Below, one piece after another: positions 21,060 to 26,818 of a DNA stretch of 64,000 bases; the stretch's first letter is position 1, and each line of letters opens with the position of its first letter. A program made the translations under genes and the position numbers. The DNA is from Thalassospira povalilytica. Its GTDB lineage: Bacteria > Pseudomonadota > Alphaproteobacteria > Rhodospirillales > Thalassospiraceae. The notes beneath the pieces were generated by a model that was given only the letters and a program-made list of their open reading frames with translations, was not told the origin of the DNA and searched no databases. The stretch spans positions 372,001 to 436,000 of the forward strand of contig NZ_PGTS01000004.1 in NCBI RefSeq assembly GCF_002844235.1. Reading direction: 5' to 3'.

Positions 21060-21106
21060 AACATATATATTGACGAAATTTTCAATCCGAACCCAATATA
21101 TAGACA
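21060..21106. promoter_or_regulatory. Two NrdR-like boxes in the nrdAB promoter
   Basis: Box 2, ACCCAATATATAGACA (21091-21106), carries the NrdR core CAATATATAG. Box 1, AACATATATATTGACG (21060-21075), is weaker with core ATATATATTG. Their cores start 31 bp apart, about three helical turns, the arrangement expected for NrdR, the ATP/dATP-sensing repressor of ribonucleotide reductase genes. A possible -35 (TTGACG, 21070-21075) overlaps box 1 and box 2 covers the -10 region. Confidence 0.7.
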
Positions 21107-21124
21107 TCACGGTCCTTCTTACCG

Positions 21125-21305
21125 AACCATATCGGTTTGAAGGCTAAGAGGGAATTCGGTGCGTTTTGCATATGCACGACAATGCCGAAGCTGCCCCCGC
21201 AACTGTAAGCGGCTAGCTTTAATCCAACCATGGTCACTGAAATGCTTGGCATTTCGGGAAGGCCGGATGAAGCATCGATCCGCAAGCCAGGAGACCTGCC
21301 GTGAG
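21125..21305 (+). ncRNA. Cobalamin (B12) riboswitch
   Basis: The B12-box region reads GCTGCCCCCGCAACTGTAAG (21191-21210), followed by a CACTG element near 21235, the GGAAGGCCGGATGAAG stretch and the closing GCAAGCCAGGAGACCTGCC (21282-21300). These are the conserved parts of the adenosylcobalamin riboswitch in correct order. It lies in the leader of nrdAB, about 120 nt before the start codon. Established for the class: B12 binding shuts off the downstream gene. Confidence 0.93.
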
Positions 21306-21401
21306 CGAACGTAAACATTCACGGGCGGGGTGTCCCGGTGGAGTGCTTGTGATCTGACTGGCAAACCGCCAATCATCCCTGCATACCTCCGTTTGGCCTT
21401 T

Positions 21402-21420
21402 GCCCCCATATGATTGGGGC
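21402..21420 (+). promoter_or_regulatory. Hairpin that may mask the nrdA Shine-Dalgarno
   Basis: GCCCC (21402-21406) can pair with GGGGC (21416-21420); the GGGG is the only Shine-Dalgarno-like sequence before ATG 21426, six bases away. This would be the output part of the riboswitch, closing the ribosome site when B12 is bound. The pairing is a by-eye prediction. Confidence 0.45.
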
Positions 21421-21425
21421 TTACG

Positions 21426-24386
21426 ATGTCAGAAGCAGTCGAGTTGGAACGGCCAGCCGTTTCCGATCCTTCATCAAATTCACAAACCATCTATCAGGTG
21501 ATCCGTCGCAACGGATCGGTTACGGCCTTTGATGCAACCAAAATCAAAACAGCCCTGACCAAGGCATTTCTTGCCGCCGAGGGCGAAACCGCGTCGGGAT
21601 CACATCGGGTACATGACATTGTCGATGGATTGGCCGATCAGGTTACCACGACCTTGTTAAAGCGGGCCGCGCCGAGCCATACCCTTCAGATCGAAGATAT
21701 ACAGGATCAGGTCGAGCTGGCCCTGATGCGCAGCGAACATCACAAGGTTGCGCGCGCCTATGTCCTGTATCGTGAAGACCGTGCGCGCGAACGCGCCAAG
21801 CTTGATGCACGCAAGAAAAGCAAAAAGGCCGGGCAGCCCGATCTTCATGTCACCCTGCCCGACGGCAGCAAAAGGTTGCTTGATATTGACCGGTTGGCGA
21901 CCGTGATTGCCGAGGCCTGTGGCGACCTTGATGGCGTCAGCACAGCACCGATCATGGAAGAAACCAGAAAGAACCTTTATGACGGTGTCACCACCGGGGA
22001 ATTGGCACTTGCCCCGATCATGGCAGCCCGAACACTGGTAGAGCGCGAACCGAATTACGCCTTTGTCAGCGCACGTTTGTTACTTGACAAGCTTCGGACA
22101 GAAGCCCTGAGCTTCGTCTTTGACCAGCCCGAACAAGCCACCCAGGCCGAGATGGGCGTACGATACGCGACGTATTTCCCCGCCGCGATCACGGCTGGCA
22201 TCAAGGCCGGTCTGATTGATCCGGAATTGTCAAAGTTTGACCTGAAAAAGATTGCCGCTGCGATCAAACCGGAACGTGATCTGAATTTCCAGTATCTGGG
22301 ACTTCAGACGCTTTATGACCGTTACTTCCTGCATGTCAAAGGGTCGCGGTTTGAACTGCCACAGGCCTTTTTCATGCGGGTTGCCATGGGTCTTGCAATC
22401 CGTGAGATCGACCGCGAAGCCAAGGCAATCGAATTTTATGATCAGCTTTCCACCTTTGTCTTCATGGCATCGACCCCGACCCTGTTCAATGCCGGCACAT
22501 GCCGCCCGCAATTGTCATCCTGCTTCCTGACCACCGTGCCCGATGACCTTGATGGCATCTTCAAATCAGTCAAGGACAACGCGCTTTTGGCGAAATATTC
22601 CGGCGGCCTTGGCAATGACTGGACCCCGGTGCGTGGTCTTGGCGCGCATATCAAGGGCACCAATGGTCAAAGCCAGGGCGTGGTTCCGTTTCTGAAAGTC
22701 GCCAATGACACCGCGATTGCCGTCAACCAGGGTGGCAAGCGCAAGGGGGCTGTTTGTGCCTATCTCGAAACATGGCACATCGATATCGAAGAGTTCCTTG
22801 ATCTGCGCAAGAACACGGGCGATGACCGCCGCCGGACGCATGATATGAACACGGCCAACTGGGTGCCGGACCTGTTCATGGAACGGGTGATGGCAGATGC
22901 GCCATGGACCCTGTTTTCGCCCGATGACACGCCGGACTTGCATGATCTTTATGGTGCGAAATTCAAGACCGCGTATGAGGCATATGAAGCCAAGGCCAAT
23001 AGCGGCCAAATCACGAATTTCAAAACCGTGCGCGCGGTGGATCTTTGGCGGCGCATGTTGACCATGCTGTTTGAAACCGGTCATCCATGGATCACCTTCA
23101 AGGACCCGTGCAACATCCGGTCCCCGCAACAACATCGCGGCGTGGTGCATTCATCAAACCTGTGCACGGAAATTACACTCAATACATCGGCAGACGAGGT
23201 CGCGGTATGCAACCTGGGCTCAATCAACCTGTTGGCCCATGTCACCGAAAATGGCATCGACCATGACAAGCTTGCAAAAACGGTAAAAACTGCGATGCGG
23301 ATGCTTGATAACGTCATTGATATCAACTTCTACACCATCCCCGAAGCACGCTATTCCAACATGCGTCATCGTCCGGTTGGTCTTGGATTGATGGGTTTTC
23401 AGGATGCGTTGCAGAAACTGAAAATCGCCTATGCCTCGTCAGAGGCCGTCGCATTTGCCGATGAAAGCATGGAAGCCATTTCCTTCCACGCCATTTCGGC
23501 ATCGGTTGATCTGGCGGCGGAGCGTGGCCGGTATGAAAGCTTTGACGGTTCATTGTGGTCCAAGGGCACCCTGCCAATTGACTCGCTTGAACTGCTTGCC
23601 AAGGTTCGTACCGAATTTGATGTCGACCGCAGCCAGCGCCTTGACTGGGACGGGTTGCGCGAACGGGTCCAAACCACCGGCATGCGTAATTCCAACACGA
23701 TGGCAATCGCCCCGACGGCAACGATTTCCAATATCTGCGGCGTCAGCCAGTCAATTGAGCCCGCCTATCGCAACCTGTTTGTGAAATCGAACATGTCTGG
23801 CGATTTCACGGTGGTCAATGCCGCCCTTGTCCGTGATCTGAAAGAACGCGGTCTTTGGGACGAGGTGATGATATCCGACCTGAAATATTATGATGGCAGC
23901 ATCGGCCAGATTGATCGCATTCCCGATGACCTCAAGGCGCTATATGCCACCGCGTTTGAACTTGATTCATCCTGGTTGATCGAGGCGGCATCACGTCGTC
24001 AGAAGTGGCTTGATCAGGCGCAATCCCTGAACCTTTATATCGCCAATCCGTCTGGCAAAAAGCTTGATGATCTTTATCGTCTGGCGTGGTTGCGCGGACT
24101 TAAAACCACCTATTACCTGCGATCAAGTGCCGCGACCCATGTCGAGAAATCGACACTTAAGGGCACCGATGGTCGCCTGAATGCGGTGGTGAATGCCCCG
24201 CAAGCAGCAAGCCCTGCCCCATCGCCTTCGCCTGTTACCGCACCTGCACCTACACCAGCGCCCGCAGTCAGCAATCGTCCATCCGGGGTCATTGATGCGG
24301 GCGCCGCATCCGATGCGATTACCGGCGGTGACGTCTGGGGCAAGGCATGTTCCCTTGACGACCCTGATTGCGAAGCCTGCCAATAA
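21426..24386 (+). CDS. nrdA: Ribonucleoside-diphosphate reductase, alpha subunit (class I)
   Basis: 986 residues from ATG 21426 (a TTG at 21414 gives a longer frame but lies in the Shine-Dalgarno). Reduces ribonucleotides to deoxyribonucleotides. Two ATP-cone allosteric domains occur in tandem, about residues 22-118 (YQVIRRNGSVTAFDATKIK) and 142-222. Catalytic barrel: TPTLFNAGTCRPQLSSCFL (active-site Cys), NLCTEI, NLGSIN and APTATISNICG. The C-terminal CSLDDPDCEACQ holds the swinging redox cysteines after a Pro/Ala linker. Pairs with the class Ic-like NrdB next door. Controlled by NrdR boxes and a B12 riboswitch. Confidence 0.95.
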   Translation: MSEAVELERPAVSDPSSNSQTIYQVIRRNGSVTAFDATKIKTALTKAFLAAEGETASGSHRVHDIVDGLADQVTTTLLKRAAPSHTLQIEDIQDQVELALMRSEHHKVARAYVLYREDRARERAKLDARKKSKKAGQPDLHVTLPDGSKRLLDIDRLATVIAEACGDLDGVSTAPIMEETRKNLYDGVTTGELALAPIMAARTLVEREPNYAFVSARLLLDKLRTEALSFVFDQPEQATQAEMGVRYATYFPAAITAGIKAGLIDPELSKFDLKKIAAAIKPERDLNFQYLGLQTLYDRYFLHVKGSRFELPQAFFMRVAMGLAIREIDREAKAIEFYDQLSTFVFMASTPTLFNAGTCRPQLSSCFLTTVPDDLDGIFKSVKDNALLAKYSGGLGNDWTPVRGLGAHIKGTNGQSQGVVPFLKVANDTAIAVNQGGKRKGAVCAYLETWHIDIEEFLDLRKNTGDDRRRTHDMNTANWVPDLFMERVMADAPWTLFSPDDTPDLHDLYGAKFKTAYEAYEAKANSGQITNFKTVRAVDLWRRMLTMLFETGHPWITFKDPCNIRSPQQHRGVVHSSNLCTEITLNTSADEVAVCNLGSINLLAHVTENGIDHDKLAKTVKTAMRMLDNVIDINFYTIPEARYSNMRHRPVGLGLMGFQDALQKLKIAYASSEAVAFADESMEAISFHAISASVDLAAERGRYESFDGSLWSKGTLPIDSLELLAKVRTEFDVDRSQRLDWDGLRERVQTTGMRNSNTMAIAPTATISNICGVSQSIEPAYRNLFVKSNMSGDFTVVNAALVRDLKERGLWDEVMISDLKYYDGSIGQIDRIPDDLKALYATAFELDSSWLIEAASRRQKWLDQAQSLNLYIANPSGKKLDDLYRLAWLRGLKTTYYLRSSAATHVEKSTLKGTDGRLNAVVNAPQAASPAPSPSPVTAPAPTPAPAVSNRPSGVIDAGAASDAITGGDVWGKACSLDDPDCEACQ

Positions 24387-24407: not shown

Positions 24408-25520
24408 ATGCTTGACTGGATTGAAAACGACGCCCCGGTTTCACACGATACCGGTGATGGCACAAATGATGCCACCGGCCTTGGCGAGATTGACCGTTCC
24501 GGCGGTCGTGTCACGGTCAGTGACAAGGCGATGATCAATTCGCGGGCCGATGTGAACCAGCTTCTGCCGCTTAAATACGGCTGGGCCTGGGACAAGTACC
24601 TTGCGGGTTGCAATAATCACTGGATGCCGACCGAAGTTTCCATGCAGGCCGACATCGCGCTTTGGAAATCGCGCGATGGCCTGACCGATGATGAACGTCG
24701 GATGCTTAAACGTAATCTGGGTTTCTTTGCCGCATCCGAAAGCCTTGTTGCCAACAACATCGTTTTGGCAATTTATCGCCACCTGACCAACCCGGAATGC
24801 CGCCAGTATCTTTTACGACAGGCCTTCGAGGAAGCGGTTCATACCCACACCTTCCAGTATATTGTCGAAAGCCTTGGCCTGGATGAGGGCGAGCTTTTCA
24901 ACATGTATCGCGAAGTTCCGTCGATTACCGACAAGGCGGCATGGGCGTTGAATTATACCAAGCACCTTGATGATCCGAATTTTGCCACCGGCACACCCGA
25001 ACGCGATCAGGATTTCCTGCGCGATCTTGTGGCGTTCTATGTCGTGTTTGAAGGCATGTGGTTTTACACAGGATTTGCGCAAATCCTGTCACTTGGCCGG
25101 CGCAACAAGATGGTCGGCATCGCCGAGCAATATCAGTACATCCTGCGTGACGAGAGCATCCATCTCAATTTCGGGATTGATGTTATCAACCAGATCAAGG
25201 CTGAAAACCCGCATCTTTGGACAGCGGAATTTCAGGAAGAAATTCGTGCGATGTTGCGTGATGCCGCCGAACTTGAAGCGGCCTATGGACGCGACACCAT
25301 GCCCAATGGCTTCCTTGGCCTGAATGCCGAGCTCTGTGAGCAATATATGCATTTCATCGCCAACCGCCGTTGCGGGCAGCTTGGCCTTGCCCCCGTATTT
25401 AACGAGGTCGAAAATCCGTTCCCCTGGATGTCAGAGGCCATGGATCTGAAAAAGGAAAAGAACTTCTTTGAAACCCGGGTGATCGAATATCAGAACGGCG
25501 GCGCGCTTAGCTGGGACTGA
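24408..25520 (+). CDS. nrdB: Ribonucleotide reductase beta subunit, class Ic-like (Phe at radical site)
   Basis: 370 residues. Ferritin-like fold with metal ligands E111 (ESLVANN), E142 and H145 (EEAVHTHTF), E215 (FEGMWF), E249 and H252 (DESIHLNFG). The residue four past H145, the site of the radical tyrosine in standard enzymes (Y122 of E. coli), is F149. Every ligand and the Phe differ by a constant 22 from Chlamydia trachomatis R2c (E89, E120, H123, F127, E193, E227, H230). R2c uses a Mn(IV)/Fe(III) cofactor instead of a tyrosyl radical, so this enzyme is predicted to do so too. Lies 21 bp after nrdA. Confidence 0.93.
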
Positions 25521-25602: not shown

Positions 25603-26622
25603 TTAGCGCCCCATGGCGGCGACTTCGCTTCCGGCGTTGGACACCGGGATGTCGTGTTGACCGGCGCGTTTGGCGCGACCGGTGTGCCAGAATTCCGGGT
25701 CTTCGGTATAGCCGCTATATTCATCGAGATGGATGTCTTCGGGCGGTTCGGGATGGATGGTGATATCAAGATCGGGATATTCGGAACGGATGCTGTCCAT
25801 TACCTGATGGCAGATGGTGTGCGCTTCGCGCATCAACATCCCGCCATCCATGATCAGTTCGATCTCGGCAAAGCGATGCACGCCCGATGACCGTGTGCGC
25901 AGGCGGTGAATGCCGATCACCGATGCGTTTTTCATGGTCAGTTCAATAATGCGCTGGCTGTCGGAATCGGGCAGTTCCGCATCCATCAGGACCTTGACCG
26001 AATTGCGTCCGACCTTGATCGCGGAAAACAGCAGGAAGCTTGCCACCAGTGCGCCGATTGCCGGATCGGCCCAGGCAAATCCCGATACCCCGGCAAACAG
26101 GGCAATGATCACGGCAAGATTGGCCAGAATGTCGCTGCTATAATGCATGGAATCGGCATCAACCGCCACCGATCCCGACATTCGCACCGCCTTGCGCTGC
26201 AACAGTACCAGACCAACTGTCATGACAAGTGACACCGCCATGATCCAGATGCCTTCATAGGCAAAGGAAATCTGTTTGGGTTCATTGAGCCTTGATGCGG
26301 CCTCGGCCAGGACCAGAACAGCCGCCCCGATCATGAAGGCCGACTGAAACAGCCCGGCAAGGGGTTCTGCCTTGCCATGGCCGAAACGGTGATCATGATC
26401 GGCCGGGCGCCATGCCGAACGGACCGCCATGAAGTTGATCACAGACGTGCCGACATCAAGCATACTATCAATCATGGAGGACAGCAGACTAACCGAGTCC
26501 GTCAGGAACCAGCCAACCGCCTTGATGATGATCAGGGTCGCAGCAATGACAATGGAGGCCGTCGTTGCACGACGTGCCCACATTTCTTTCTGCGCTATGT
26601 CAATGACGGGACATTGACTCAT
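25603..26622 (-). CDS. Cation diffusion facilitator (FieF/CzcD-type) metal exporter
   Basis: 339 residues from ATG 26622, chosen because AGAGGT lies nine bases upstream; the frame opens 11 codons earlier. Six predicted membrane helices, with metal-site residues in SMIDSMLDVG and in DADSMHYSSDILAN (HxxxD), then a cytoplasmic C-terminal domain with HRLRTRSSGVHRF. Uses the proton gradient to expel divalent metals such as Zn, Fe, Cd or Mn; the ligand set does not decide which. Divergent from ccmF. Confidence 0.92.
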   Translation of the reverse strand: MSQCPVIDIAQKEMWARRATTASIVIAATLIIIKAVGWFLTDSVSLLSSMIDSMLDVGTSVINFMAVRSAWRPADHDHRFGHGKAEPLAGLFQSAFMIGAAVLVLAEAASRLNEPKQISFAYEGIWIMAVSLVMTVGLVLLQRKAVRMSGSVAVDADSMHYSSDILANLAVIIALFAGVSGFAWADPAIGALVASFLLFSAIKVGRNSVKVLMDAELPDSDSQRIIELTMKNASVIGIHRLRTRSSGVHRFAEIELIMDGGMLMREAHTICHQVMDSIRSEYPDLDITIHPEPPEDIHLDEYSGYTEDPEFWHTGRAKRAGQHDIPVSNAGSEVAAMGR

Positions 26623-26818
26623 ACGTTGTTGACCTCTGGCCGCCCAATCTGCCACCTGACAGCGGTTTTATAGCCTGTTTGAGCATAATATGTAATGACT
26701 ATTGCCATATTTTCGCCCAGCGTTGTGCAGCAAATAGCGCATATTTGATATTCCGCAAGGTTTCCAAGCCTGTTTTAAGGGATTATATCTCGCAATCGGG
26801 CGCACAAGAGAGAACCTA

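Follow-up and report, generated by a model that had tools for sequence, protein, structure and literature searches.

How does a class I ribonucleotide reductase (RNR) work when its radical-generating subunit has lost the radical tyrosine, and what would a free-living bacterium use it for? Both questions are raised by nrdB in the window, a 64,000-nucleotide stretch of Thalassospira povalilytica DNA. As far as the surveyed literature tells, knowledge of class Ic chemistry derives from a single enzyme, that of a pathogen. Thalassospira is a free-living genus, and here the class Ic signature stands in a setting that hints at a job, namely B12 shortage. The features of the gene that carry the argument are given below.

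24408..25520, plus strand: nrdB, radical-generating subunit with a Glu+Phe (class Ic-type) signature, an ORF of 370 aa
24738..24740, plus strand: codon of E111, the first metal ligand (position calculated from the start of the ORF; this residue is Asp in the 99 Tyr-type R2s read)
24852..24854, plus strand: codon of F149, which takes the place of the class Ia/Ib radical Tyr (position calculated likewise)

The initial annotation had described six metal ligands with a phenylalanine in place of the tyrosine, at a constant offset of 22 from the R2c protein of Chlamydia trachomatis, and both the ORF reading and the alignment bear this out. NrdB carries E111, E142, H145, E215, E249 and H252 as ligands, with F149 as the Phe, and their R2c partners are E89, E120, H123, E193, E227 and H230, with F127 for the Phe; the offset holds at every one of them. 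The alignment places Phe, and no Tyr, at the radical position (F149 corresponds to C. trachomatis F127). Furthermore, W72, Y244, D248 and Y361 align with W51, Y222, D226 and Y338 of the chlamydial protein, which we take to be its radical-transfer residues. NrdB scores 315 bits against Pfam Ribonuc_red_sm and 674 bits against NCBIfam PRK07209, is 89-94% identical to its nearest named relatives, which belong to Thalassospira species, and is the sole R2 found in the 4.44 Mb genome. The C-terminal Tyr (Y361) and the adjoining nrdA mark it as a true RNR subunit by these features, and they also count against an R2lox identity, for which the R2lox models reach at most 51.8 bits, far below their cut-offs. 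A sequencing slip behind F149 was likewise rejected because 105 distinct fetched R2 sequences carry the same Glu+Phe pair.

Class Ic is characterised in print by Phe in place of Tyr together with a Mn/Fe centre (available parts of PMC3824934 and PMC8463856). NrdB has the full metal site with Glu as ligand 1, a class Ic feature, and the six ligands, this Glu and the Phe together support the class Ic pattern proposed earlier. The other classes fit less well. Class Ia wants Tyr at the radical site and Asp as ligand 1, where NrdB has F149 and E111; class Id is unlikely because its R2s universally keep the Tyr, and the NrdA there has no ATP-cone (PMC8463856, in the sections accessible), as against F149 and ATP-cones here; class Ie is excluded because its metal ligands are replaced and all six are present in NrdB. 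From the residues that it carries, NrdB very probably holds a tyrosine-free metal oxidant, and we infer that the metals used are Mn and Fe. Under this reading, nrdAB would encode an oxygen-dependent class I reductase of the class Ic type, in which NrdB would bind two metals through E111, E142, H145, E215, E249 and H252. Because Phe replaces Tyr at 149, the stable oxidant would have to sit on the metal centre, most likely as the Mn(IV)/Fe(III) form of C. trachomatis, and the conserved positions suggest that it would be passed to NrdA through W72, D248 and Y361.

Ligand 1 and the radical residue behave as a tied pair. From 311 loci, 270 of them with an R2 match, 206 distinct aligned R2 sequences were obtained, comprising 105 with Glu+Phe, 2 with Glu+Leu, 99 with Asp+Tyr and none with a mixed pair, although these sequences are related and thus do not represent 206 independent events. 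Alignment columns 55, 212, 238 and 251 lean the same way as the pair. W218 was considered as a clade-specific residue and discarded, as Trp also occurs there in some Tyr-type R2s. For Chlamydia, an Asp-to-Glu change accompanying the Phe has been noted. The two Glu+Leu R2s (L176 and L177, at loci L287 and L288) come from the actinobacterial genomes G691 and G669 and have an nrdA-like frame after nrdB; a cobalamin riboswitch match lies just before nrdB at L287, where 32 bits barely exceed the cut-off, and about 2.5 kb before nrdB at L288, with 77.5 bits.

The phylogeny of these proteins was explored with a 90-row set and with a 40-row set, the latter obtained by dropping rows that were distant, on long branches or nearly duplicated, together with L195/L208-L216, a fast Asp+Tyr group; the two trait columns (ligand 1 and radical site) were left out of the 40-row NrdB tree. 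NrdB falls in a clade, here called W, that holds alphaproteobacteria together with Crossiella, Saccharopolyspora erythraea and others. Two groups are Tyr-type, P (Pseudomonas-type) and B (other proteobacteria and an Acaryochloris plasmid), and three actinobacterial Glu+Phe rows on the C. trachomatis side of the 40-row tree form group C. Clade W joins P and B with a support of 100/98, and C. trachomatis and the C rows lie outside the clade of W, P and B. A concatenated NrdA+NrdB tree, built without the C. trachomatis row and without L276 (whose NrdA was detected by tblastn) and L279 (partial NrdA), agrees with the NrdB tree. Consequently, the kinship with Chlamydia that the initial annotation implied does not hold: uniting W with the C. 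trachomatis side is rejected both for NrdB alone with C. trachomatis included (AU p 0.0365) and for NrdA+NrdB (AU p 0.0067), where that side consists of its actinobacterial partners in group C only.

The direction of change is less sharply drawn. Uniting P and B, which corresponds to a Glu+Phe ancestor with a single switch to Asp+Tyr, is retained (AU p 0.32 for NrdB and 0.196 for NrdA+NrdB), and because this single switch survives the AU test, we make no claim of an independent origin of Glu+Phe in W. The grouping of W with P has a support of 90/89 (NrdB) and 83 (NrdA+NrdB), yet that of W with B gives p 0.042 for NrdB and 0.305 for NrdA+NrdB. The 90-row tree requires at least four changes of the residue pair, two of which are forced by its starred branches. 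On these trees, class Ia-type and class Ic-type R2s are interleaved in this branch and do not form two lineages. It had been anticipated that a placement with class Ia would speak against class Ic; NrdB does group with class Ia-type R2s, but this does not refute the class Ic assignment, because the two types are interleaved here. In our view, class Ic is defined by chemistry, and forming one clade with C. trachomatis is no defining feature of it.

The surroundings of nrdB suggest what the enzyme may be for, and the features upstream are as follows.

21093..21317, plus strand: aptamer of a cobalamin (B12) riboswitch ahead of nrdA, matching Rfam RF00174 over its full length (1-189) with 122.6 bits and E 2.9e-30
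21402..21420, plus strand: possible hairpin over a G-rich stretch just before the nrdA start, a putative expression platform (sequence reading and fold)
21426..24386, plus strand: nrdA, encoding the catalytic subunit of a class I RNR (PRK07207; 641 bits to the Pfam barrel model and 1683.8 bits to NCBIfam NF005544)
21495..21785 (contig 393495-393785), plus strand: N-terminal ATP-cone of NrdA (PF03477, 72.9 bits)
21846..22100 (contig 393846-394100), plus strand: second, weaker ATP-cone of NrdA (PF03477, 28.3 bits)

The nrdA start was taken as the ATG at 21426 (the ORF program starts at the TTG at 21414), which lies about 110 bases from the end of the aptamer, on the same strand. The earlier remarks on a two-cone NrdA and on B12 control are confirmed by the two PF03477 matches and by the riboswitch match, the aptamer being present in every clade relative scanned. 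Between 21317 and 21426, that is, from the aptamer to the nrdA start, no plus-strand terminator-like site was found. The minimum free energy fold of 21300-21440 includes a 4-pair hairpin at 21402..21420, although the z-score of the whole is weak (-1.21). Since a terminator-like hairpin is missing and the small hairpin spans the bases leading up to the ATG, our guess is that control is exerted at the translation start. Downstream, a cation-efflux (CDF) gene at 25603-26655 on the minus strand is convergent with nrdB; its match crosses stop codons in several genus mates, possibly as mere differences in frame ends. Elsewhere in the source genome there are four further cobalamin riboswitch matches, followed by ORFs that, judged by eye, appear to be cobalt-transport, B12-uptake, cobW-cobN and methylmalonyl-CoA-mutase genes. 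The same genome encodes a class II NrdJ as a 1237-aa ORF on another contig (NF005736, 2181 bits). The operon is predicted to be off at plentiful adenosylcobalamin and on when B12 is short, and nrdAB would therefore stand in for the B12-dependent NrdJ. Thus, a B12-repressed Mn/Fe back-up reductase that replaces NrdJ in B12 shortage is, by its sequence and setting, the probable role of this operon.

The same arrangement recurs across the relatives of NrdB. A riboswitch lies upstream of nrdA on the same strand in all 35 W-clade loci scanned, drawn from more than 80 such loci, and in 4/4 Glu+Phe actinobacterial loci of group C (39/39 together), compared with none of the 16 Tyr-type P and B loci, where each scan extended over 1.4 kb or more ahead of nrdA. 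It was also absent from the three haloarchaeal Glu+Phe loci scanned and from three actinobacterial Glu+Phe loci whose R2s are 41% identical to NrdB and beside which no nrdA was seen; a further Glu+Phe actinobacterial locus (L289, R2 34% identical) does carry one. The riboswitch is no peculiarity of class Ic, as it also occurs at 9 of the 13 actinobacterial loci of distant Tyr-type R2s, several of these matches being weak (37-49 bits). At the Tyr-type nrdAB of Acaryochloris marina plasmid pREC2 (L194), a small gene separates nrdA from a riboswitch about 900 bases upstream; cobW and DUF1636 genes follow nrdAB there, and the plasmid is typed as conjugative.

NrdJ follows a similar pattern. A NrdJ over the model cut-off and away from nrdA was found in 17 of 18 named W genomes vs 4 of 16 P and B genomes (Fisher p 4.5e-5, with kinship ignored), the latter count being possibly low because the model can miss a split or divergent NrdJ. 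In the 18th W genome, that of Erythrobacter tepidarius, the sole candidate is a NrdJ-like frame of 743 aa that stays under the cut-off, and NrdJ was present by the same measure in 5/5 further actinobacterial genomes with Glu+Phe R2s. Matches were counted solely away from nrdA because several NrdAs narrowly pass the same cut-off.

Among 289 alphaproteobacterial genomes, 133 have an R2 match and three a class Ic-type R2 (the source genome, one genus mate and one other); the other alphaproteobacterial R2s are about 34% identical to NrdB or less, apart from a few short partial matches at 40-41%, and all 27 of them that were read are Asp+Tyr. A search of 299 proteobacterial genomes gave 57 that passed E 1e-50, at 59 places, of which 50 were read (8 Glu+Phe and 42 Asp+Tyr). 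Among 246 actinobacterial genomes there were 26 that passed, and reading every one of these gave 11 Glu+Phe, 2 Glu+Leu and 13 Asp+Tyr. On Azospira sp. plasmid pAZI09 (L195), one row of genes combines nrdB and a gene for an RNR alpha subunit with class III nrdD genes and their activase, and this cluster adjoins an integrase and a Tn3 transposase.

Within Thalassospira, a class Ic-type nrdB occurs in 8 of 29 genomes and a Tyr-type one, about 28% identical to it, in 12 (13 loci); two genomes have both and 11 neither. All eight class Ic operons have the riboswitch. At the 13 Tyr-type loci, the scan covered stretches of 8-9 kb, each reaching into the sequence ahead of nrdA, and no riboswitch was found. 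A class II-type frame is present in 29/29 genomes, of about 1,240 aa with an RNR barrel in 28 and as a 665-aa fragment in one; the NrdJ models were applied to the frame of the source genome, and the other frames were likened to that one. The class Ic operon lies between phoH and the cation-efflux gene in six of its eight genomes. Of the 21 genomes that have no class Ic operon, 13 show phoH directly next to the efflux gene (for example G575, with phoH 99.6% identical to that of the window), the flank read in the remaining eight not showing phoH. On a genus tree of ccmF and the efflux gene, which covers 28 of the 29 genomes (G589 has no ccmF stretch), the Tyr-type operon characterises a single clade with 11 genomes, and the class Ic operon needs six changes and is present in 6 of the 17 genomes outside that clade. 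The other two class Ic genomes, G570 (contig C2, 2626000-2640000, L305) and G571 (contig C1, 275000-289000, L306), carry nrdAB at another site, convergent to a gene judged by eye to be metE-like, with one cobalamin riboswitch before nrdAB and another before the metE-like gene. In these genomes, two B12-independent stand-in enzymes are side by side.

Three other explanations have to be weighed against a B12-repressed Mn/Fe back-up enzyme. NrdB could be class Ic-like in sequence and yet use another metal oxidant, such as Fe/Fe or Mn/Mn. In favor of this, its closest relatives outside the clade are Tyr-type, with an identity of 67% against 58% for C. trachomatis, and the Glu+Phe proteins of the NrdB side are unlike those of the C. 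trachomatis side in some columns (for example 69, 78 and 218 in the 40-row set). However, NrdB agrees with C. trachomatis at every one of the six ligands and in the Glu+Phe pair, and class Id, the known Mn/Mn case, keeps its Tyr according to the accessible text of PMC8463856, so that we consider a different metal pair unlikely. We give still less weight to a general aerobic class I enzyme in which the missing Tyr has no meaning for cofactor stability and the riboswitch serves plain B12 sparing as in Streptomyces. The Tyr-type actinobacterial operons with a riboswitch are compatible with it, as is Streptomyces coelicolor (PMC4991794, as far as available), but in the branch of NrdB itself the riboswitch goes with Glu+Phe (39/39) and is missing with Asp+Tyr (0/16), with the Acaryochloris locus as a partial exception, and the substitution pair is strictly conserved.

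It is equally improbable that nrdB is a recent foreign arrival in Thalassospira without a settled role. Its patchy presence (8/29 genomes, with at least six changes on the tree of two flanking genes) and the fact that plasmids of Phyllobacterium, Methylocella and Aureimonas carry relatives 82-86% identical would suit such an arrival. Against it stand the shared site between phoH and the efflux gene and the fact that nrdB identity tracks ccmF identity (Spearman 0.62 over 28 non-independent pairs). Because the two divergences run in parallel, the simplest history is that the operon is old and was lost repeatedly in genomes for which NrdJ is enough.

With the back-up reductase as the preferred reading, a broader proposal can be offered tentatively, and we hold it with less than even confidence. 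The switch between class Ia and class Ic may be reversible in this R2 branch through two tied substitutions (Asp/Glu and Tyr/Phe): either W became class Ic independently of Chlamydia, or the Pseudomonas-type and related proteobacterial enzymes regained the Tyr radical from a class Ic-like ancestor. Class Ic would be kept in genomes where a B12-repressed operon backs up NrdJ, which would let cells exchange cobalt chemistry for that of manganese and iron. As class Ia-type and Ic-type R2s here are not two lineages, the jump between cofactor types is open to study in close homologues, and the sister Thalassospira species either lack the class Ic operon or carry the Tyr-type enzyme instead. The tied residue pair, the interleaved phylogeny and the B12 setting are what this analysis adds to the initial annotation.

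Class Ic-type R2s outside Chlamydia are already in print, and an R2 86% identical to NrdB has already been solved. Lundin 2010 (PMC3019208) and PMC3824934, in the parts available, list class Ic not only for Chlamydia but also for haloarchaea and further bacteria. Literature searches, run mostly at listing level and outside most subscription journals, returned no paper tying class Ic enzymes to B12 riboswitches and no biochemistry for any member of clade W, and the accessible portions of PMC9936198 and PMC4428469 do not connect class Ic with the riboswitch. The solved protein is the R2 of the actinobacterium S. erythraea (PDB 6y2n), 86% identical over 338 columns, with the same six ligands and Glu+Phe pair and in the same clade W; its structure served as a crystallography test case, for which the available text gives no metal identity or activity (PMC7467353). 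The class Ic type enzyme itself, C. trachomatis R2c (PDB 1syy and 4d8f), shares all ligands, the Phe and the radical-path positions with NrdB, but is 58% identical and lies outside the clade that joins NrdB with Tyr-type R2s, and its NrdA has three ATP-cones (PMC9669993) compared with two in Thalassospira. The Pseudomonas-type R2 (L197, from a P. aeruginosa plasmid) is closer in identity (67%) but has Asp+Tyr; the P. aeruginosa NrdA is two-cone like that of Thalassospira (PMC9669993), and operons of this type lack the B12 riboswitch at the 16/16 P and B loci scanned, a count without L197, whose stretch holds no nrdA. Haloarchaeal class Ic-type NrdB, for which Phe at the radical site was noted by Lundin 2010 (PMC3019208, in the part available), is 51-55% identical to the Thalassospira protein and has Glu+Phe but no riboswitch in 3/3 loci.

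The regulatory setting has its nearest counterpart in S. coelicolor nrdABS, a class I operon behind a B12 riboswitch in a genome with a class II NrdJ, as in Thalassospira; unlike NrdB here, the enzyme is described as class Ia in the accessible text (PMC4991794). The actinobacterial R2s of riboswitch-bearing Tyr-type operons in our set, which does not include S. coelicolor, are 32-36% identical to NrdB. In Propionibacterium acnes, an annotated cobalamin riboswitch precedes the first gene of nrdAB, and much of the operon's transcription ends in that region (PMC3848588, available part). The Thalassospira class Ic-type enzyme is of a known kind, in a setting that is well ordered but little studied.
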